From assembly GCA_947476485.1 (NCBI GenBank), contig CANJQU010000019.1, positions 1-48,879 on the forward strand: DNA of 48,879 nucleotides, in the 5' to 3' direction. Below, piece by piece: positions 2,622 to 38,130 of the stretch. How positions within the stretch are numbered: the first letter of the stretch is position 1; each line of letters starts with the position of its first letter. This DNA comes from Chitinophagaceae bacterium (GTDB lineage: Bacteria; Bacteroidota; Bacteroidia; Chitinophagales; Chitinophagaceae). The position numbers and the translations under genes were made by a program. The notes beneath the pieces were generated by a model. That model worked only from the letters and a program-made list of their open reading frames with translations. It was not told the origin of the DNA and ran no database searches.

Positions 2622-3950
<1,329 letters not shown>

Positions 3951-4029
3951 TTCATACGCATGGGTAATACTTGTGCATATGTTGATAATTACGGGTTATC
4001 CCGCTTGCGAAGTTTTGTAATTTTCAGGT

Positions 4030-4344
4030 ATGATGAAGAAGGTGCTTAAGATCGTGACGAACAAGTATTTTATCGCTTCGGTGATCTTTGTGTCATGGAC
4101 GCTGTTCTTTGATCAGAACGACTGGTTCTCACTACAGCAGCGGCAAAAGGAACTGAATAGCGTAAAGGGCAATATTACCTATCTCAATAATGAAATAACG
4201 CGAATGAACACAGAACGAACTAACCTGCTAACCAATCCGCAGAAACTGGAGCAATATGCCCGCGAAAACTACAGGATGAAGCACGAAGGCGAAGATGTGT
4301 ATGTGATAGACGATGTTTCTGAGAACAGGTCCAGAGCAAAATAG
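4030..4344 (+). CDS. DivIC/FtsB-like septum formation initiator
   Basis: This is a 104-residue bitopic membrane protein. A short basic N-terminus precedes one membrane segment (about residues 13-27). A coiled-coil of about 45 residues rich in Asn, Glu, Leu and Arg follows, then the DivIC-type ending LEQYARENYRMKHEGEDVY. Proteins of this family pair with FtsL-type partners and link FtsQ/DivIB to the septal synthase complex, with most of the chain in the periplasm. In many Bacteroidetes genomes a DivIC homologue lies just after eno, as here, and that supports the call. Two Met codons stand in tandem at 4030 and 4033; either could be used. A terminator follows 28 bases after the stop. Confidence 0.88.
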   Translation: MMKKVLKIVTNKYFIASVIFVSWTLFFDQNDWFSLQQRQKELNSVKGNITYLNNEITRMNTERTNLLTNPQKLEQYARENYRMKHEGEDVYVIDDVSENRSRAK

Positions 4345-4372
4345 GATCAATTAATTTTCTGATCAGTTAGTT

Positions 4373-4397
4373 ACCCCGGCTTTTTGGTCGGGGTTTT
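4373..4397 (+). terminator. Rho-independent terminator after the divIC-like gene
   Basis: A 6-bp GC-rich stem (ACCCCG at 4373-4378 with CGGGGT at 4389-4394) with a T-rich loop is followed by a run of T. It ends the eno / divIC-like unit. The rest of the 4345-4595 interval holds no other feature that I can support. Confidence 0.75.
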
Positions 4398-4595
4398 CTA
4401 TGCTCCAATAGTCACCACTTCAGCCCCTATGCCCGCCAGTATGTTGCGCCCGTGATCGCGGGCTCATCTGCGGAGTCTCGACTAAAGAATAGTATTTTGT
4501 TATGCTCAGATAAAAAGAAATTGTGTTAAAGTGCGTGGGGAATTGCATTTTATGTCACAAATAGTAGCCACCTTTGATCTTCCATTAATTATTAA

Positions 4596-5096
4596 ATGAT
4601 AACCGTAATTGCAGGCACTAACCGTTCAGACAGCATGACGCTGCGGACAGCCAACCTTTACCATAAATTATTGTCTGAAAAGCATGAACAGGTTAGCCTG
4701 CTCTCGCTGGAGCATAAGAAGGTCTGGGAACGTGGTGCCGAGATGCATGCTCTGGAGAAGGAGTTTCTCATTCCCGCGGAAAAGTTTGTATTTATTATGC
4801 CGGAGTACAACGCCAGCTTCCCCGGAATATTGAAGCTGATGATGGACAACAGCGACATAAAAAAGTGCTGGTGGTATAAGAAGGCCGCATTGGTGGGGGT
4901 ATCTGACGGAAGGGCCGGCAATCTTCGTGGCATTGAGCATATGACCTCTATTCTCCATTATATGAAGGTGCATGTGTTGTATAATAAAGTACTGCTGTCG
5001 CGGATAAACGAGGAGATAGACAGCGATGGAAATTTTATTAAGACCGATACAAAGGCGATGATAGCGCTCCAAATAGAAGAATTCCTGAAATTTTAA
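4596..5096 (+). CDS. NAD(P)H-dependent FMN reductase family protein
   Basis: This 166-residue protein has the flavodoxin-like fold of NAD(P)H-dependent FMN/quinone reductases. The N-terminal phosphate-binding loop AGTNRSDSMT holds the flavin phosphate. The mid-protein segment FIMPEYNASFPGILKLMMD matches the P-E-Y-N motif that contacts the isoalloxazine ring. The segment VGVSDGRAGNLRGIEHM fits the third flavin-contact loop. There is no signal peptide, so it should act in the cytoplasm. Its substrate cannot be told from sequence; family members reduce quinones, chromate or azo compounds or supply FMNH2. The stop codon lies only 3 bases before the next start, so it is probably cotranscribed and translationally linked with the metallophosphoesterase. 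Confidence 0.85.
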   Translation: MITVIAGTNRSDSMTLRTANLYHKLLSEKHEQVSLLSLEHKKVWERGAEMHALEKEFLIPAEKFVFIMPEYNASFPGILKLMMDNSDIKKCWWYKKAALVGVSDGRAGNLRGIEHMTSILHYMKVHVLYNKVLLSRINEEIDSDGNFIKTDTKAMIALQIEEFLKF

Positions 5097-5099
5097 ATC

Positions 5100-6353
5100 A
5101 TGCACATGGCACTTAGGTTGATCATCATTCTCAGTATTATAGGGCTGGCAGAGTATTACAGCTTCATCGTAATACGCTCAGCGGTGCGCAATATGCCTCC
5201 GCCGTGGCGTTTAGGTATCACGATCCTTTACCTGGCGCTCACCACACTCAGCTGGCTCGGTCTCATTTTCATAAGAACGATCAACTGGGCTAATGTCCCA
5301 CATCTGCTACGCAACGTATACGTAGCCTTTGTGTTGGGCTTTACTGTAGGTAAGATTTTGATATTGCTCGTGATGGTGATCGATGACATCCGGAGGTTGT
5401 TTACATGGCTGATCACTGCGATCGCGTACAACTCATCCGCTCCAGCAGACGGCACCAACAGCATCGAGCGTTCGCTGTTTTTGAAGCGTACCGCACTTGT
5501 GCTTGGAGGGCTTTCTCTGCTTGGCTTTACCTATGGCATACGAAACAGGTATAGCTACCGTGTCAGAAGGGTCAAGCTCACTTTAGCTGCGCTCCCGCAG
5601 GCTTTCAAAGGAATGAAGATCGTGCAGATATCCGATATTCATACCGGTAGCTTCGATAATCATAGCGCAGTCGCGCATGGTATACAGAGAGTAATGGACC
5701 AAAACCCCGACCTCATATTATTTACCGGAGACCTCGTAAACAACCATGCGGACGAAGTTGACGCTAAATACCAGGAAATATTTTCCCGTTTAAAGGCCCC
5801 CATGGGTGTATTTTCAACACTTGGAAATCACGACTATGGCGACTATGTGCATTGGCCTTCAAAGCAAGCACAGCGAGATAATCTTGAAACGTTGAAGGGC
5901 ATACACGCATCCATGGGTTGGCGTTTGCTGATGAATGAGCACGTAGTGCTGGAGCGAGGCACAGATAAGATAGCCCTAATAGGCATAGAGAACTGGAGCG
6001 CCAAAGCCAACTTCCCCAAGTATGGCAATATGAGCAAGGCTTACGAAGGCCTTAAGGAAAAGAATATACCCGTCAAGATACTGATGTCTCACGATCCTTC
6101 ACACTGGCATGCCCAGGTCATACCCGAATTTGGAGAGGTAGATCTCACACTTAGTGGCCACACCCACGGCATGCAGTTTGGTGTAGACAGCAAGTGGTTC
6201 AAATGGAGCCCTGTGCAGTACATGTACAATGAGTGGGCAGGCCTTTATACCGAGGGTAAACAACACCTCTATGTGAACCGTGGTTTTGGCTTCCTCGGCT
6301 ATCCCGGCAGGCTGGGTGTAATGCCGGAGATAACCGTGTTTGAGCTGGGGTAA
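5100..6353 (+). CDS. Membrane-anchored metallophosphoesterase (YkuE/YaeI-like)
   Basis: The protein has 417 residues. The first 150 or so contain about four hydrophobic membrane segments. A calcineurin-like phosphoesterase domain begins near residue 173. All metal-binding blocks are visible in order: QISDIHTGS, LFTGDLVNNHADE, STLGNHDYGDY, LMSHDPSHW and LSGHTHGMQFG. This order and spacing fit the dinuclear metal site of YkuE/YaeI-like enzymes, several of which hydrolyse lipid-linked or nucleotide phosphoesters at the membrane. The true substrate is unknown. The catalytic domain could face either side of the membrane. The start is taken at the ATG 3 bases after the FMN reductase stop; a second ATG at 5106 is an alternative. 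Confidence 0.88.
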   Translation: MHMALRLIIILSIIGLAEYYSFIVIRSAVRNMPPPWRLGITILYLALTTLSWLGLIFIRTINWANVPHLLRNVYVAFVLGFTVGKILILLVMVIDDIRRLFTWLITAIAYNSSAPADGTNSIERSLFLKRTALVLGGLSLLGFTYGIRNRYSYRVRRVKLTLAALPQAFKGMKIVQISDIHTGSFDNHSAVAHGIQRVMDQNPDLILFTGDLVNNHADEVDAKYQEIFSRLKAPMGVFSTLGNHDYGDYVHWPSKQAQRDNLETLKGIHASMGWRLLMNEHVVLERGTDKIALIGIENWSAKANFPKYGNMSKAYEGLKEKNIPVKILMSHDPSHWHAQVIPEFGEVDLTLSGHTHGMQFGVDSKWFKWSPVQYMYNEWAGLYTEGKQHLYVNRGFGFLGYPGRLGVMPEITVFELG

Positions 6354-6411
6354 GCTTTCCGGACGTTTTATGGAATTATTAGTGTCATAGTGTCTTTTAA
6401 TAAAACACACT

Positions 6412-6933
6412 ATGGCTGAAATGAATTTGCCGCAGAAGGACCGCAGGATGCAGGCTCCGCGCATCGATCTTACACCGATGGTAGACCTCGGGTTTTTACT
6501 CATCACCTTTTTTATGTACACCACAACACTCGCCAGGCCGGCGACGATGGAAATAAAAATGCCCTCCCGTGAGCCAACCACAAGCCCAACAGAAGTTGCC
6601 GCCGAAAGCACACTCACACTCATCGCCACAGAAGATCATCACATCGTTTACTACGAAGGGCTATTAAGCGACCTCAGCCAGATGAAGCAATGTTCATTTA
6701 CGCAGTTGAGAGCAGTACTCTTAGATAAGAAGAGCCGCGTGCTGTCGCTTCCCGCAACGTTTTCAGCTAACGCGCATAAGATGTATGTGATCCTGAAGCC
6801 CGGTGATGAAAGTACCTATGGAGACCTTGTGCAACTGCTTGATGAGATGAGCATAAACGAGATCCCCTTCTCCACCATCGTTGATCTGACTACCGAAGAA
6901 ATAGAGTGGCTCCGGAAAAAATTCCAGCGCTGA
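6412..6933 (+). CDS. exbD: ExbD/TolR-family biopolymer transport protein
   Basis: This 173-residue inner-membrane protein has one N-terminal transmembrane helix and a periplasmic domain. The helix carries the essential proton-path aspartate of ExbD/TolR, at Asp25 in LTPMVDLGFLLITFFMY. ExbD works with ExbB and TonB to couple the proton gradient to outer-membrane transport. The periplasmic part is longer than in enterobacterial ExbD and has KMPSREP just after the membrane, as in a Bacteroidetes-specific group of ExbD paralogues. No exbB is present in the window, so this pair must draw on an ExbB encoded elsewhere. The tonB-like gene follows within 50 bases, suggesting one transcript. Confidence 0.88.
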   Translation: MAEMNLPQKDRRMQAPRIDLTPMVDLGFLLITFFMYTTTLARPATMEIKMPSREPTTSPTEVAAESTLTLIATEDHHIVYYEGLLSDLSQMKQCSFTQLRAVLLDKKSRVLSLPATFSANAHKMYVILKPGDESTYGDLVQLLDEMSINEIPFSTIVDLTTEEIEWLRKKFQR

Positions 6934-21364: not shown

Positions 21365-21790
21365 ATGAAAAGGCTGCTGCTCATACTTATTGGCTTTATT
21401 TGTGTTGTGGGTGCCTGGGGGTGTTATAAAGACATCAAGCGCCAGAAACGCACAGATATACTTATAAATCATACCTGGTACCTGAAAAGCCAGTCTGTCG
21501 GCGCATTGGTTCAGGACGACTCCTGCTATCTTTCCGAAGTCCTGACTTTTAGGAAGGACAGCATGGGTAATCACCATTATAATATTCTCTGTGATCCTAA
21601 TGGCCGCCGTGATCTTGCTTTTAAGTGGACCATCCCCGGTCAGTGGCAGTATATGTACTTTTACAATGTTGGTGGCAAAAAAGACTCCAATTTCGTCTAC
21701 CGCATCTGGATCAATCACGACGACACGCTCAAGATCGGCACCGTCCTCAATGGTGTTTCGATCATTTCGGTCTATACTTCCTTTCAATAG
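21365..21790 (+). CDS. Small predicted lipoprotein of unknown function
   Basis: This 141-residue protein starts with a hydrophobic signal and the lipobox VVGAWGC, with Cys20 as the likely lipidation site. The mature part has a W/Y-rich beta pattern: INHTWYLKSQSVGALV, CYLSEVLTFRKDS, FKWTIPGQWQYMYF, VYRIWINHDDTLKIG. The alternation of N-x-x-W-x-L and Y-R-I-W-x-x-D-x-L suggests a lipocalin-like or other beta-barrel lipid-binding fold, but that is an inference from pattern alone. A GGGAAAG sequence precedes the ATG. It lies between the MFS gene and the ECF sigma gene, 154 bases before the latter. Confidence 0.72.
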   Translation: MKRLLLILIGFICVVGAWGCYKDIKRQKRTDILINHTWYLKSQSVGALVQDDSCYLSEVLTFRKDSMGNHHYNILCDPNGRRDLAFKWTIPGQWQYMYFYNVGGKKDSNFVYRIWINHDDTLKIGTVLNGVSIISVYTSFQ

Positions 21791-21944
21791 TTGGCGATAT
21801 TATTAATATCAAACACCCGCTTATTGCCATTTCACCCCTGATTTGCATTAAATTCCGTAAATTTAATGTGTTTTAGTCCCCTCACCCAACCATTTCCCGG
21901 ATGATACGGTCTATTATAATGTTAAGCATTAATAACAAACATAC

Positions 21945-22520
21945 TTGTCTATCGCTTTGGCATATACTTTAACTGGCCATGCAAGTGAGTTAGAACAGCT
22001 CATTCAGGGTTGTATTCGCAACGAAAGAAGTGCGCAGGAGAAGTTATACCGTTTATTTTACCCCAAAATGATGGCATTGGTAAAGCGGTACATAGACCAT
22101 GAGATGCAGGCGGAAGAGATATTGAACAACGGATATTTAAGGGCTTTTCAGAAAATAAAGCAATATAATTTCCAGGGTTCCTTCGAAGGATGGTTAAGAA
22201 AGATCGTGTTTCATGCGGTGGCTGACTATGTGAAGCAAAACACAAGATATTCGGATAAGATACTACTGGTAGAAAAGGATGAGTTAGTACATAAGGACCA
22301 TGCAGATAAGATGTATTACGATCAGCTTATTCAATTGGTGCAGGCGCTACCCGATGCAACACGAACCGTTTTTAATATGTATGTGATGGAAGGCTTCACA
22401 CACAAAGAAATAGGAACCATACTCGGTATTAGCGAGGGAACATCAAAGTGGCATTTGTCTGAGGGGCGAAGAGTACTTAAAGAAAGAATTGAAAAAATGG
22501 AATTGCATTTAAAAGCATAA
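21945..22520 (+). CDS. ECF-type RNA polymerase sigma factor
   Basis: This protein of about 190 residues has the two conserved sigma-70 regions of ECF factors. Region 2 runs from ELEQLIQGCIRNERSAQEKL through AEEILNNGYLRAFQKI to the GSFEGWLRKIVFHAV helix. Region 4 ends in FTHKEIGTILGISEGTSKWH, the DNA-contact helix-turn-helix that reads the -35 element. No ATG occurs before region 2, so a TTG at 21945 or 21957 must serve; this weak start may limit expression. The gene directly downstream, 77 bases on, encodes a membrane protein with an N-terminal cytosolic segment and an outer-membrane-type barrel. That neighbour is a good candidate for controlling this sigma factor. Confidence 0.9.
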   Translation: MSIALAYTLTGHASELEQLIQGCIRNERSAQEKLYRLFYPKMMALVKRYIDHEMQAEEILNNGYLRAFQKIKQYNFQGSFEGWLRKIVFHAVADYVKQNTRYSDKILLVEKDELVHKDHADKMYYDQLIQLVQALPDATRTVFNMYVMEGFTHKEIGTILGISEGTSKWHLSEGRRVLKERIEKMELHLKA

Positions 22521-22588
22521 TATATAATGTGGGGTTGAACATTTTCAATCCGGAGAGTTTAGGAGTAAAACATTTTTAAAACAAAAAA

Positions 22589-22606
22589 TTTATCCACATG
22601 GATAAA
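22589..22606 (+). promoter_or_regulatory. Start-codon hairpin of the tethered barrel gene
   Basis: TTTATCC (22589-22595) and GGATAAA (22600-22606) form a perfect 7-bp stem around the loop ACAT. The A and U of the start codon sit in that loop and its G is the first base of the right arm. In RNA this could slow initiation. The AGGAG at 22561 is too far upstream to serve as a ribosome-binding site. Confidence 0.45.
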
Positions 22607-24970
22607 AATTTCATTAGCATCGATGACCTGGTAAGGCAGCGATTTAGCGGAGAGGAAGAAAAAGATCGCCCGGCGGGTTGGTTGCAAATGCGCGATCTGC
22701 TCGATAAAGAGATGCCGCGCGATCGGGGTGGGTTCTTATATTGGCGTCGTACGTTCGGCGTTGCGGGCTTACTCTTGTTAGCCACATCAATAGGTGTGGG
22801 TAGCTACCTGTATGGCACCAGGGGACTTAACGGCGCCGGCAACGGGGCAAATTCCGATGCTGTTGCGGCTAATACACTGATCACTGATAACACAAACAGG
22901 AGCAGCTCGAACTCAAGCACGATAACAGGTAATAAGGAAACTTCGATTGCAGCCGTGAATACTGCGGCAAATGCTAACCATTCTAAAACAAAAAATTCCA
23001 ACGATCTTAAAACTGCCGCTGCAGACATAGTTGCCAACAGCACTACCTCAAATACTAATTCAGTTGAAAACAAAGTAGCTCCTAAACCAGTACAGGGTAA
23101 CGCTCTGGCAGGCGGCGCACCACAAAACACCACAAAAGCTACGACCGGCAATGAAGTAAACACTACTACTAACAATGCTAATGAATTAACCGCTGCAAAC
23201 AACAAAAAGATAAATACGGGTCATGCTGAGGCGGTTCAACATAAAACTACTGCTGAAAATGTAGCGGGTCTTCAACCTGCGGCACATGCTGACAAACCCG
23301 TCCTCGCATCTGCACAAAAGAATGTAGCAGCTAAAGAACATTCCGACAAGGCAGAGAAGAGAAGGCAATTCCTCGCCAATGTGATCGCTGCAAATGAGCA
23401 ACATAAAAAAGCAGCAGAAAAGAAACTGCTTGCGTCAAACACAGACGGTAACAAGCATACACAAAGTAAAGCGTCGCATACCACTGGTTCTGGCGATATC
23501 AACACGATCACAGAAGACCAACCCAAAGAGCTGGCTTCAGGCGGTAATGCTCAGAAAAACACTTCACATAACAGCCGGAAAGCAACTTCTGGAAAGGAAA
23601 TAGGTGTTAAGAATATTGCTGCGATCAAACCAGCGGGCAATCACAAAACTGCCACCGGGAAGAATGATCAGGTTACTGCAAACAAACTTGCATTAAGCAG
23701 CAGCACTAGTACTGGCAAAACTACCAGCACTAAGAGCACCACAGGTATAACCGCAGAAAAGGTCATAGAAGCAAACGATAAGCCGCTTGCAGGCAATAGC
23801 AGCAAGCATTCTGCCCCTAAAACTGGGACACCGGTGCAAACTTCCGGCAACAGTACGGGCCACATGCCTGCAGACAAAAATAAGTCTGGCGCTTCGCGTA
23901 ATGGAGCTCAGCAAGGTATAGCAGCAATAGATGCTAAGGAAGATGCAAGCCCGGCACGTGAGAAAAGATCATTTGAAAGGGTGTTGGTTAATGAGCGTTT
24001 TGTGAGTTCAAAGCCCGCAGATGGCTATTTCAAACTCGATACTATTTCAATTGAGCAGCTTACAAGGGAAGTTGCAGGCGATAATGGATCCAATAGTCGC
24101 AACAGGCACAACCCTGCTGAGCCGGGTAAAGAAGAAAGTACAGACGCTAACGAGAACAGTAACTCAGCGGTTGCAGCCAATACAGCGATCGTTCCGGCAG
24201 CATCTTCTTCTGCTACTGCCAAAAACGGTCTTGGCAAGCAGAACCAGTCGTCTAAGGGCAGTGGAGAATCAACGCTGGAGAAGCTGAACGCTACTTTCAA
24301 CGATGTTAAGTATCATGTTTCCGGCACCCAGTTCTCACCAGGCCTTACTGGCGGTATCAACGCTACCTTCTTTGGTCCTAATAGCTTTAAAGGCTTCCAG
24401 TTTGGTGTTACCGGCAACTTCAGCTTTGGCGATAATGTAGCAGCTATGGCAGAGGTGAAATACTTCCACCGGATCAACAACAACTACTCCCTGAACGACA
24501 ATTACTATACCTATACCCAGGTTGGAAATGGCCAGTTTAGCAAGCAGCAGGAAACTAACGCTTATAGCTTCTCTACTTTACACAGTATAGAAATGCCGGT
24601 CTCTATCAGGTATACAAAGAGCCATTTCAACTTTTATGCAGGAGGTAACTTTGTATACAGCTTCTCAATAAATACCGGCGCGTCTACGCTGCAGAACACG
24701 GCAGCTCCTACACTGGTTTCCGCTCAGGGCAACGATAATGCTCCTAGGCTCCAGCAGGACGCCTTTAATTCAAGGTTCGGTGTTGGCTATCTCATGGGCT
24801 TGTCTTACGAGGTTTATCCTAACCTTTCTTTGGATTTCCGTAGTGTGCAGACCGTTTGGGACAACGCACCATCGCAGGGCAGCAAGATAGTATCCGGCCA
24901 GCTTTACAAGAGCCCGTCATTCCAGGTATCTATCGGGTATCGCCTGGGTGGCAATAAGAAGAAGGACTAA
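22598..24970 (+). CDS. Inner-membrane-anchored protein with long linker and C-terminal outer-membrane beta-barrel (putative sigma regulator)
   Basis: This 790-residue protein has four parts. Residues 1-51 are cytosolic and charged, with WLQMRDLLDKEMP, a helix like those before the anchor in Bacteroidetes sigma-linked proteins. Residues 52-72 are one membrane helix and act as an uncleaved anchor, because a 51-residue charged N-terminus is unlike a signal peptide. Residues 75-555 are a low-complexity linker rich in Asn, Thr, Lys and Ala, broken by one ordered segment (FERVLVNERFVSSKPADGYF at about 456). Residues 575-790 are a beta-barrel-like domain with alternating aromatic and polar residues and an ending FQVSIGYRLGG. 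The layout would tie the inner membrane to an outer-membrane barrel. It follows the ECF sigma gene and may be its regulator; that is inference. Confidence 0.8.
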   Translation: MDKNFISIDDLVRQRFSGEEEKDRPAGWLQMRDLLDKEMPRDRGGFLYWRRTFGVAGLLLLATSIGVGSYLYGTRGLNGAGNGANSDAVAANTLITDNTNRSSSNSSTITGNKETSIAAVNTAANANHSKTKNSNDLKTAAADIVANSTTSNTNSVENKVAPKPVQGNALAGGAPQNTTKATTGNEVNTTTNNANELTAANNKKINTGHAEAVQHKTTAENVAGLQPAAHADKPVLASAQKNVAAKEHSDKAEKRRQFLANVIAANEQHKKAAEKKLLASNTDGNKHTQSKASHTTGSGDINTITEDQPKELASGGNAQKNTSHNSRKATSGKEIGVKNIAAIKPAGNHKTATGKNDQVTANKLALSSSTSTGKTTSTKSTTGITAEKVIEANDKPLAGNSSKHSAPKTGTPVQTSGNSTGHMPADKNKSGASRNGAQQGIAAIDAKEDASPAREKRSFERVLVNERFVSSKPADGYFKLDTISIEQLTREVAGDNGSNSRNRHNPAEPGKEESTDANENSNSAVAANTAIVPAASSSATAKNGLGKQNQSSKGSGESTLEKLNATFNDVKYHVSGTQFSPGLTGGINATFFGPNSFKGFQFGVTGNFSFGDNVAAMAEVKYFHRINNNYSLNDNYYTYTQVGNGQFSKQQETNAYSFSTLHSIEMPVSIRYTKSHFNFYAGGNFVYSFSINTGASTLQNTAAPTLVSAQGNDNAPRLQQDAFNSRFGVGYLMGLSYEVYPNLSLDFRSVQTVWDNAPSQGSKIVSGQLYKSPSFQVSIGYRLGGNKKKD

Positions 24971-25365: not shown

Positions 25366-26226
25366 CTACTTATTGCCGATGATCCGTATCTCCACGCGCC
25401 GGTTTCGTTCCATATCCTCTTGGGAATATTCCATAACTACTACCGGGCGGCTCCTGCCAAACCCCTTATAGGTAAGGCGTTGCGGTTCTATGCCCCGGTT
25501 TACAAGGTAGTTGTATATTTCGCGTGCCCGGTTCACAGAAAGATGTGCTTCTCCGGTTTCTATATCTAAAGCATCAGGCGCATTTCTGCTGATACAGCAC
25601 ACATGCCCCTCAATACTGATCTTCAGTTTAGGGTTTGCGTTCAGCACGGCAAACAGTCGCTCCAGCGTTCCGTTCGACTCCGGGTTTATCGTATGCCGGT
25701 CGGGGGGGAAGTATACATCCCGCAATAAAAAGACCGATCCCGAATCGAGCCGGTTAAGCTCGCTGACATTTGTGATCGGTTTCTTTTTAACACTGTCTTT
25801 TCGCGTAGTCCCCGTCCCTTTTTTTCTGGTCCTGTTATTCACCACTATATCCACCCGCCTGTCGGTCGGGAAGCCTCCTTTACCTTTAACGGTACGGTCT
25901 ATTTCACCTTTTCCTTCACATAGCGTTATGTCACTGGGATTAATGCCGTTCTGCACAAGATATTCTTTCACATTAGCTGCCCGTTTAATGGACAGGTCAC
26001 GATTGTGGCTTTCGTTGCCCAGGAAATCTGCATAGCCCACGATCATCACAAGGCTCCCGCTGATGATCTTGTCGTTATAAATGAGCAGGTCTATTTTTTT
26101 CTCCATTTCACTGCTCAGCGCCGGCACGTTCAGGTCAAAATACAACTTGAATGTATCCACGCCCTTTTGTCCGAAAACAGGCGTCAGCACTATCGAAAAC
26201 AATATCGTTAACAGTGTTTTATACAT
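25366..26226 (-). CDS. Secreted protein with two OmpA-like peptidoglycan-binding domains
   Basis: This 286-residue protein has a signal peptide (about 1-19, cleavage near PVFGQ). Two OmpA C-terminal-like domains follow in tandem. The first (about 25-130) shows GYADFLGNESHNRDLSIKRA and ends FPTDRRVDIVV. The second (about 165-286) shows VYFPPDRHTINPES, IEGHVCCISRN, LSVNRAREIYNYLVNRGIEP and ends MERNRRVEIRI. The N-x-x-L-S-x-x-R-A and D/N-R-R-V-[ED]-I motifs contact the diaminopimelate stem of peptidoglycan. There is no barrel or lipobox, so the protein should be free in the periplasm and might cross-link two peptidoglycan strands. The CC pair in domain 2 could form a vicinal disulfide or bind metal. 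Confidence 0.85.
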   Translation of the reverse strand: MYKTLLTILFSIVLTPVFGQKGVDTFKLYFDLNVPALSSEMEKKIDLLIYNDKIISGSLVMIVGYADFLGNESHNRDLSIKRAANVKEYLVQNGINPSDITLCEGKGEIDRTVKGKGGFPTDRRVDIVVNNRTRKKGTGTTRKDSVKKKPITNVSELNRLDSGSVFLLRDVYFPPDRHTINPESNGTLERLFAVLNANPKLKISIEGHVCCISRNAPDALDIETGEAHLSVNRAREIYNYLVNRGIEPQRLTYKGFGRSRPVVVMEYSQEDMERNRRVEIRIIGNK

Positions 26227-37200: not shown

Positions 37201-38130
37201 GTAGGTCCGATCTTAGCTAGCTTCTCTTCGGTTTGTATCGGAACAACAATTACACTTTCTGATGCTACACCGGGTGGTGTTTGGAGCAGCAGCGATACCA
37301 GCATTGCAACCATCAATGCTTCAGGCGTTGTTACAGGTATCGCCAATGGCACAGTTACAATTACTTATTCTGTGACCAGCGGTGGCTGCTCAGGAATTGC
37401 GATCTATACCCTGAACGTTTCAACAAGTTCAATGGGTGTAGCCGTCGTTCCTGCCAGTGCAACACTTTGCCATGGCAACAATGTGAACATGCACGTTACT
37501 GCGATCATACCAGGTATGACCTACCAGTGGTTGCTGAACGGCACTATCATACCAGGCGCTACAAACTCAGGTTACATTGCAGACAGCGCAGGCACTTATA
37601 CGCTCGAGGTTAACAATGGTACCTGCAGCATGACGATCAGCGGTTGCGTAGTATCTAACGAGCCAAACCCGGTTATCGGATTTAACAGCCCGAATATATT
37701 GTATACTGGTTCGTTCTTCGCTTATCAGTGGTACAAGAATGGCGTTGCGATCTCTGGTGCTAACAGCAGCACTTACTACGAGACATCACCAGGTTTCTAC
37801 ACCGTAGTTGTTACAGATATGAATGGTTGCTCTGATACAGCTTCTGGCTATACTGTCTCTGGCGGTAGCGGTGGTGTTCATGTTGGTACAGTTGGCAACA
37901 ACGGCAACATCAGGATATTCCCTAACCCTGCTACTTCAGTACTGACTATCGATGCACCAATGAATGTTAACGTATCGATCCTGAGTGTGGACGGCAAGAC
38001 GCTGATCGCTCAGAAATCAGCTAACAGCATCGACATCAGCCAGCTGGCAAACGGCATGTACCTGATCATGATCTACAACGAAAATGACATGTTGCTCATG
38101 ACTTCTAAATTCGTGAAGTCAGAACAATAA
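31207..38130 (+). CDS. Giant T9SS-exported protein with 22 Ig-like (BIG2-type) repeats
   Basis: This 2307-residue protein has a signal peptide (1-27, cleavage near GAFAS). Residues 28-330 form an N-terminal module (SHIVGMDLNYQSLGGNVYRV) common to large surface proteins of gliding Bacteroidetes. About residues 425-2075 hold 22 repeats of 70-90 residues with the pattern V-C-x-G, G-G-x-W-S-S, A-x-V, G-x-V-T-G-V, I-x-Y and C. Two Cys per repeat suggest one disulfide each. Repeats 1-16 mostly have S-S-x-N after Trp, and repeats 17-22 have S-S-x-D. After two Ig/PKD-like domains (TYQWLLNG, AYQWYKNG), a type A T9SS sorting domain (IRIFPNPATSVLTID) ends the chain. It is likely an adhesin or matrix fibre. 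A terminator follows. Confidence 0.9.
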   Translation: MKRHLPLYLRSLLLSGLFLLTGFGAFASHIVGMDLNYQSLGGNVYRVTLVAYGDCASGGPFTSLATASPQICIYNGGTSFATISLAVDPTNSGTLASPVCTADTGLTTCSGGTIIGIKKYTYTGTVTLSGPSHVWRFIFDGNMGAATAAGRLSGITNVVNPDNGLTVLVDTLDNTYHNNTSPVLPVVPTPYYCLNNTDHYNPAASDAEGDSLRFYLSPGLQVGTTAANCAAASAAGNVTYVTGYSATSPLATSAGTFVFSAATGDISFVPNVVQRSLVVYNIREYRNDTFMGSSQREMTFLVQTCVNTPPNGGGGITSSTGGGVIVDSLNYHICTNSGAFTLTVNPRESLPTANITVTSFGLPAGATMTYTGNGTPTPSATFHWTSTGIPAGIYTFYLVYTDDNCPIAGQTTQAFNITINSLGVITGVANVCPNDTTQLFNSTSGGFWSSSNPGVATVGSATGIVTGVTSGTATISYSVGTCFVTRIVTVNPAPGPILGATHVCIGQTITLSDTPAGGTWSSANSAIATVTAGGVVTGVTAGGVTTITYTQGAFGCFATIVDSVLASPGTISGNLAICPGQTTSLSNATGGGGTWTSSNTGVATVLLTSGLVTGVASGTAVITFTAGTGCTATAIVTVNNAVGPITPSPVVLCLGGLITLTDTPPGGVWSSSNTGVATITSTGVLTSVGIGTTTISYTNAGCSATTVATVNSAPAPITPATSIICVGNTVNLTDPTTGGVWSSGNTAVATVGGTGIVTGTGAGIATISYAIGTCVVTATVSVSPAVAAITPTPVVICLGGTVTLADATPGGTWSSTNTGVATISGGGVVTSVGVGTTTISYTTAGCAATTIVTVNNAPSPITPAGAAVCTGATVNLTDATSGGVWSASNGNANVGGTGIVTGVAAGTVTISYSIGTCIVTAIVTVNAGAAAISPSSLTLCIGNTATVSDAVGGGVWSSSNGNATVSAGGLVTAVSSGTSIISYTIGSCSATITAVVSASPSAISPATATVCAGSSITMSNAVGGGVWSSSNGNVTVIAGVVTGVTAGTSTVSYVIGTCFATATVTVFPAPDTGVITAPATAICPGSSVQMSDPVAGGVWSSSNTNATVSATGLVTGVSIGTSVISYTVTTGCGAVSATLVVTVTTTAGSGTILGPATVCVGSFNIYLAGTPGGTWSLTNANAVISPVGVVTAITAGPETVVYTVPGACASSTFNITIVPAVVGAGTILGPTSICIGSTVTLSNPTAPGGVWSMTNGHATINPTTGLVTAVSPGLDTVRYVLSTACGTYTATSTMNVNSSATPSPISGPHVVCVGSVITLTDADLGGAWSSSNARATVTPGAGNVTGVSPGLDTIKYTVVNGCGLGSTTHIVTVMPTPGAGTILGPSSVCIGGTIVLTDLTSGGTWSATNGSGTVSAIGHFTGVSTGIDTVLYTITAACGSVSAIKVVTVNAVGDAGIILGLDSVCVGSSITLLDFTPGGVWSAGNGHATVTGGVVTGISNGTVPISYTVVTSCGSGSAVKIVNVMAPGGDPGIIQGIDAVCVGSAITLTDTFASGGIWATSNDNAILLGPGIVAGVTPGIDSIFYVVTNMCGTNEARKIITINPSPVVPAITGPTAQCTGTNITLANSFGGGVWSSSDVTIASVNLSTGIVTGIGSGIATISYTVTNSFGCPGTAVSPDTVSDAISVTPIIGSGSMCFGGLNVLIDTTAGGVWSSSDASIADVDASGNVTGLAAGVAIISYTVTGPCNTASATLAVTVNPLPAISPISGTGNVCLGGTTTVSDAVTGGVWSSSDTTVLTIDPVTGVITGVTAGTANVIYTVTSGTGCSSATAVTFTVNTPPVMAPITGITNQCVGGTSLLANATGGGVWSSSDVTIATVDAGGTVTGIAEGIVTISYSTTGGTGCIGAATVSDTVSVLPVPTPITGTMNVCEGATTALTNATAGGAWSSNDVTIATVDPVTGVVTGVLAGTDFIFYTVTNACGSVIDSATITVDAAPVVGPILASFSSVCIGTTITLSDATPGGVWSSSDTSIATINASGVVTGIANGTVTITYSVTSGGCSGIAIYTLNVSTSSMGVAVVPASATLCHGNNVNMHVTAIIPGMTYQWLLNGTIIPGATNSGYIADSAGTYTLEVNNGTCSMTISGCVVSNEPNPVIGFNSPNILYTGSFFAYQWYKNGVAISGANSSTYYETSPGFYTVVVTDMNGCSDTASGYTVSGGSGGVHVGTVGNNGNIRIFPNPATSVLTIDAPMNVNVSILSVDGKTLIAQKSANSIDISQLANGMYLIMIYNENDMLLMTSKFVKSEQ

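Follow-up and report, generated by a model that had tools for sequence, protein, structure and literature searches.

The window considered here is the whole of a 48,879-nucleotide stretch of contig CANJQU010000019.1 from a Chitinophagaceae bacterium. It carries a gene for an extracytoplasmic function (ECF) sigma factor followed by a gene for a 790-residue protein. Probably, this pair constitutes a Das-Dma sigma/anti-sigma system which controls its own operon and, in addition, genes for cargo of the type IX secretion system (T9SS), PorP/SprF and other surface proteins. The informative part is a promoter motif and its distribution, both absent from a preliminary description of this DNA. The promoter set ties the recently described Dma class of regulators to T9SS cargo, and because the promoter is conserved with a fixed spacing the regulon of a Dma-type system becomes directly testable. 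To our knowledge, little is understood of how Bacteroidota adjust the export of surface proteins to the outer membrane beyond PorXY-SigP.

The sigma factor, its partner and the Dma family

The sigma gene (21945..22520, plus strand) codes for 191 aa and starts with TTG; the in-frame open reading frame (ORF) opens 9 bases earlier. The protein scores 42.5 bits with Sigma70_r2 and 47.9 bits with r4_2 of Pfam, both above the gathering score, and the initial assignment as an ECF sigma factor stands. By eye, the TTG at 21945 recurs in many relatives, inside strongly conserved DNA around the sigma start. Translational control of the sigma gene from the TTG start or from the conserved DNA is possible.

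The partner (22598..24970, plus strand) is identified as a Dma-type dual membrane-spanning anti-sigma factor by domain plan, linkage and distant homology. Its segments were delimited by alignment, hydrophobicity and AlphaFold. Residues 1-45 (22598..22732) are a conserved cytosolic segment with short helices at 8-16 and 27-36, the predicted anti-sigma domain. The predicted inner-membrane helix, residues 47-72 (22736..22813), has a conserved WRR at its start, and the best hydrophobic 19-residue stretch of the protein begins at residue 53. There follows a low-complexity periplasmic linker of about 485 residues (73-558; 22814..24271), poorly conserved outside a single island and predicted to be disordered, i.e., the AlphaFold confidence value pLDDT is below 50 over most of 68-453 and much of 494-551. 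The island is a conserved β-hairpin with an LDTIS motif (residues 454-493; 23957..24076). Its strands comprise residues 454-472 and 475-493 (pLDDT in ten-residue blocks from 451: 59, 83, 86, 71), and T482 and S484 do not vary across all 93 aligned sequences, in agreement with the ordered island near residue 456 noticed earlier. A conserved helix (559-573; 24272..24316) is located just N-terminal of the outer-membrane β-barrel domain (OMP_b-brl_2; 578-783; 24329..24946), for which AlphaFold predicts ten main strands with block pLDDT of 75-95 across 581-780.

The nearest folds to this barrel in a fold search are NspA, OmpA and OprF; the match rows mostly span residues 576-787. Scanned alone, residues 572-790 match PF13568 with 28.3 bits at a cut-off of 27. 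The whole 790-residue protein matches none of the Pfam families, and the hairpin region has no Pfam family when the pieces 1-75, 73-453 and 440-575 are scanned at E up to 1. A sequence search against the PDB returned weak barrel matches to Opa60 and NspA (E 0.02-0.06) and one chance-like match at 0.8. The top matches in a viral library were mostly generic barrels. AlphaFold and the fold search thus bear out the topology claimed in the preliminary description, namely a cytosolic segment, one helix, a disordered linker and an outer-membrane-type barrel. A non-barrel C-terminal fold, named there as one of the outcomes that would overturn the proposal, did not emerge, as the fold search led to outer-membrane barrels.

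A search with the barrel region retrieved 147 proteins at E up to 1e-3, and the best 120 of these 147 were used for an N-terminal pattern. It fits 109 of the 120; two of the remaining eleven (P0019 and P0020) share a one-letter variant, and for nine the listed sequence does not include that end. Residues 1-70 and the part from about residue 561 on are highly conserved. The linker between them is little conserved except for a rise at 451-490. Chitinophagaceae relatives with the N-terminus found range from 554 to 973 aa; the length of the linker is therefore highly variable and both ends are retained. Relatives of the protein are present in 34 of 35 genomes of the genus (the one without is 65% complete) and in 42 of 195 genomes of the family. 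The sigma gene is positioned directly upstream of the partner in 52 of the 54 relatives with wider stretches, and in the remaining two (L080, L095) the sequence starts at a contig end; the intergenic gap is 6-143 bp. The conserved linkage which the preliminary description had proposed to check across relatives is evident. A search of 540 candidates of about 540-1716 aa revealed no natural sigma-Dma fusions (Dma3-like) at E up to 1e-3. A second sigma-Dma pair exists in the same genome on contig 20, consisting of a 195-aa sigma (6345-6932 of locus L121, minus strand) and a 999-aa protein (3332-6331, minus strand). The 999-aa protein has no Pfam match.

The dual membrane-spanning anti-sigma architecture was reportedly first described in a 2024 PNAS paper for Bacteroides. 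According to passages of PMC13088901, the Dma plan comprises an N-terminal anti-sigma domain, a transmembrane helix, a long disordered tether, a C-terminal β-barrel and an adjacent ECF21 sigma factor. Dma proteins of Bacteroides are reported to have domains all the way from the outer membrane to the cytosol, and to affect vesicle production and polysaccharide-utilisation loci (PMC13088901). The protein of the window follows the plan. A predicted helix, 47-72, succeeds the cytosolic domain, the tether is predicted to be disordered (pLDDT below 50 for most of 68-551 except the hairpin), the C-terminus is a β-barrel, and the adjoining ECF sigma, which may be of the ECF21 group as in the published family, is related to two das2-type sigmas. 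Because the system is Dma-type, its kind is already known, and the novelty of the architecture which the preliminary description implied has to be given up in view of those passages (PMC13088901).

Loci of dma2-type were sought in 395 genomes of the class via DUF4943, which is reported beside dma2; nine genomes had DUF4943. The two best loci, L298 and L299, both stem from one Bacteroidia genus. By Pfam, L298 encodes an ECF sigma, a 356-aa protein with an OMP barrel above the cut-off, DUF4943, DUF4858 and a nitronate-monooxygenase family protein, i.e., the published dma2 gene set in order. L299 contains a sigma, a Dma-like protein and DUF4943. A widened profile, built from Chitinophagaceae Dma N-termini plus distant members, matched L299 at 2.3e-7 and L298 at 7.6e-6 with weak bit scores. 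These were the only matches below 0.4, and in each locus the best match was the Dma protein. A narrower N-terminal profile gave 1.2e-4 and 0.07 for the Dma proteins of L299 and L298. The sigma factor of the window matches the sigmas of the two loci at 3.1e-26 and 5.4e-24 (phmmer), and in a tree of 18 sigmas it groups with the das2-type, apart from two other ECF types, with a support of 97/96; the finer order is unsure because several branches are long. PF22054 had no matches in the window's own genome or in any of 14 control genomes and is thus uninformative on absence. Judged by sequence, the sigma and anti-sigma ends are distantly homologous to dma2-type operons, and the domain plan is shared. 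By analogy with the family, the role of anti-sigma factor most likely falls to the N-terminal segment, which would bind the sigma. The earlier idea of sensing without a separate anti-sigma therefore needs correction: probably, the system does not dispense with an anti-sigma.

A promoter motif with fixed spacing and the genes behind it

The sigma-Dma operon is preceded by an ECF-type promoter, ACCCAACC-N17-GTCTA with the core CCAAC-N18-GTCT (21884..21913, plus strand), 31 bp ahead of the TTG start. This conserved motif is the single match to CCAAC-N18-GTCT in the window. ECF promoters usually have boxes of this type, which suggests autoregulation of the sigma operon. An upstream scan that allowed 13-24 bases between the boxes found the motif ahead of the sigma gene in 48 loci with a spacer of 18 in all; two apparent exceptions carry it inside an over-long ORF, again with a spacer of 18. 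L064, L093 and L104 are cut by contig ends and are outside the testable set. Counting the window, the motif is hence present ahead of the sigma gene in 50 of 50 testable loci, and the spacer is always 18. The core has 53 matches in 579,288 bases, counting both strands. It was not found on the strand of the second pair in L121, the locus on contig 20. A text search for the motif letters brought up unrelated papers only among the matches listed.

Genome-wide, a stricter form was used, ACCCAACY-N17-GTCTW, with the reversed pattern and a spacer one base shorter as controls. The 35 genomes of the genus have 142 strict matches versus 16 for the reversed control and 11 for the shorter spacer. Counted by hand, the sigma's own sites account for 33 of the 142, leaving 109 others. 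In the 42 family genomes with the pair 95 strict matches stand against 11 control matches; 24 are the sigma's own sites, and 71 versus 11 remain. The 153 family genomes without the pair show 32 versus 98 control matches. Enrichment at the family level is thus confined to genomes carrying the sigma-Dma pair (Fisher p 3e-25 across the 195 genomes, uncorrected for kinship). The distribution fits a Das-type sigma as the reader, which would bind these sites. In two loci (L208 and L211, from genomes G031 and G033) a second copy of the motif, some 770 bp upstream of the one that precedes the sigma gene, is followed by a 133-aa gene with a signal-peptide-like start.

What lies behind the sites? From the 109 non-own sites in the genus 84 were examined, and 68 of these precede a gene with a signal-peptide-like start. 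By the home-made rule used for this, 8 of 26 genes of the window and 128 of 395 in the family loci qualify as well, but 0 of 11 sites with a shifted spacer. Six of the 84 sites precede a second ECF sigma gene (192-193 aa) at 184-210 bp. A near-match, the CCCAACG variant, is located about 230 bp before a similar, second ECF sigma gene in the window's own genome (L136, contig 191 of G000).

Twenty sites before long genes, chosen since the ORF continued beyond the stretch initially taken, were extended before the C-termini had been seen. Seventeen of these ORFs closed, and all 17 carry a T9SS sorting domain above the cut-off, ten of type B and seven of type A. Another 15 of 15 proteins behind the motif, picked after their C-termini had been seen, have T9SS type A domains. 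For comparison, the own genome contains at least 150 domains of type A and 23 of type B at E up to 1e-6, which amounts to roughly 4% or more of its genes, estimated at some 4,000. PorP/SprF above the cut-off is found behind the motif in three loci of the genus and at six sites in other genera, three of the latter in genomes counted as without the pair. Binding between type B cargo and PorP-like proteins has been reported (PMC9143113), so it makes sense to find both. The own genome has four strict sites, one of which is the sigma's own. Two precede type B cargo proteins of 1977 aa and 1255 aa, and the third non-own site precedes a 451-aa lipoprotein-like protein with sub-threshold β-propeller matches. 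By eye, similar genes follow strict sites in other genomes of the genus.

As to the neighbourhood in the window, a 141-aa protein that matches Lipocalin_4 just above the cut-off is encoded directly upstream of the promoter (21365-21790, plus strand). An OmpA-family gene (25366-26226, minus strand) converges with the dma gene. Two T9SS type A sorting domains are present elsewhere in the window, at 2266-2484 and 37915-38118 (plus strand), within open frames that are 789 and 2323 aa long, respectively.

Proposed mechanism and alternatives

The following sequence of events is proposed. Residues 1-45 would hold the sigma factor at the inner membrane, as in the Dma family. In the predicted topology the helix anchors the protein in the inner membrane, the linker crosses the periplasm and the barrel resides in the outer membrane. 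Disturbance or occupation of the outer-membrane end, or a cut in the linker or the helix, would release the sigma. Free sigma would then bind CCAAC-N18-GTCT promoters, as the motif statistics suggest. It would transcribe its own operon, by which the brake is reset, and genes for surface proteins: T9SS type A and B cargo, PorP/SprF of the type-B-binding kind, lipoproteins and the second ECF sigma. In this way, T9SS cargo is most likely tuned to the state of the outer membrane. The linker hairpin is conserved well enough to have a function; speculatively, a periplasmic partner, the barrel or a protease might dock there. One may go further and tentatively consider, although this is rather doubtful, that in Chitinophagaceae the single two-membrane polypeptide senses T9SS load or state at the outer membrane through barrel or hairpin and raises cargo together with its PorP/SprF carriers. 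If true, a single protein would carry feedback for a secretion system all the way from the cell surface to RNA polymerase.

Several observations weigh against the proposal of a Das-Dma system with a surface-protein regulon. The homology of the anti-sigma end to dma2 is weak, 17-22 bits, and the barrel profile did not pick up the dma2 barrels of L298 and L299. At the level of the phylum, 8 of 296 genomes had a match to the family profile. These include the own genome and a family member; the other six matches are weak (E 4e-8 to 2e-4), two by the barrel alone. The small number of strict sites in the own genome, four, means that its regulon may be small. The rule for signal peptides is home-made and lax. 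Ten of the 84 examined sites are without a fitting gene, and 25 of the 109 non-own sites were outside the examined set. The 15 cargo proteins were chosen after their ends had been seen; the 17 were chosen before, yet all are long genes, and a T9SS domain was found in 0 of 10 smaller genes and lipoproteins behind the motif.

Further on the opposing side, the motif is evidence for a shared reader, not for the Das-type sigma as that reader. Another sigma factor, e.g., the second ECF sigma, might read it, and the Das-Dma operon would then be only one of the targets. The second sigma gene does lie behind the motif in six loci of the genus, a similar gene in the own genome follows a near-match, and a motif before a sigma gene is by itself no proof of autoregulation. 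In addition, three of the 32 matches in family genomes scored as pair-lacking precede PorP/SprF genes (L261, L262, L288; two genera). We nevertheless consider another reader unlikely, as the motif is fixed before the Das-type sigma gene in every testable locus and its enrichment tracks the Das-Dma pair across the 195 family genomes. As for the three exceptions, the pair may have been missed, because another genome in each of the two genera has it; in 15 genomes scored as pair-lacking one site each was seen, and the sites other than the three PorP/SprF ones are unlike the regulon.

The topology, too, has its opposing points: insertion of the barrel with the helix uncleaved is a prediction, and AlphaFold assigns the first 70 residues a block pLDDT of 51-64. 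With such an uncertain N-terminal model the protein might exist in two states, i.e., the helix is cleaved or both ends are never inserted at once, the barrel part is released or degraded and the anti-sigma part is left at the inner membrane. Long unstructured linkers are presumably sensitive to proteases. This is quite improbable considering that the helix does not begin before residue 47 and has a conserved WRR at its start, which would be atypical of a signal peptide, that helix and barrel are on one chain in full-length relatives, and that the domains of Bacteroides Dma proteins are reported to reach from the outer membrane to the cytosol (PMC13088901). Finally, OMP_b-brl_2 barrels are common in Bacteroidota, and a porin-like protein could merely adjoin an unrelated sigma gene. 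The linkage in 52 of 54 relatives with its short gaps already contradicts such a chance neighbourhood, as do the conserved, non-porin N-terminus and the homology to dma2-type operons; it is hardly credible.

Comparison with known systems

FecR/FecA relays pass a signal from the outer membrane to an ECF sigma and need a separate receptor and anti-sigma for this. The Das-Dma pair would resemble them in the path of the signal and differ by the lack of this division between receptor and anti-sigma. A FecR domain was not found in the 790-aa protein: neither its full sequence (Pfam and NCBIfam) nor the pieces 1-75, 73-453 and 440-575 (Pfam) matched any family at E up to 1.

In Porphyromonas gingivalis the ECF sigma SigP of the PorXY-SigP system controls T9SS genes, and sigP is autoregulated (passages of PMC7712824). 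Both the link of an ECF sigma to T9SS genes and autoregulation would be features in common. Activation of SigP depends on a two-component system; no Dma-type partner is named in the passages of PMC7712824 that were consulted. SigP targets genes for T9SS components, whereas the sites described here precede cargo and PorP/SprF genes. In Flavobacterium psychrophilum, SM6 promoters have an ECF-type motif tied to T9SS genes and to one ECF/anti-sigma pair (passages of PMC9723704). The likeness consists in an ECF-type promoter motif with T9SS genes.

The closest relation is to the Dma family, with its four-part plan and adjacent ECF sigma common to the window pair. Dma proteins differ in length, 356 aa in the dma2-type L298 versus 790 aa in the window and a range of 554-973 aa among its Chitinophagaceae relatives. 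A further, putative difference is the conserved hairpin of the linker. In the open-licence literature Dma and type IX secretion were found together only in a mention in a reference list. The effects published in PMC13088901 concern vesicle production and polysaccharide-utilisation loci; the targets predicted here are T9SS cargo and PorP/SprF. The architecture being already published, the target set of T9SS surface proteins seems to be the new part. The long linker with a conserved hairpin and the T9SS-linked promoter set would distinguish the Chitinophagaceae system within the Dma kind.

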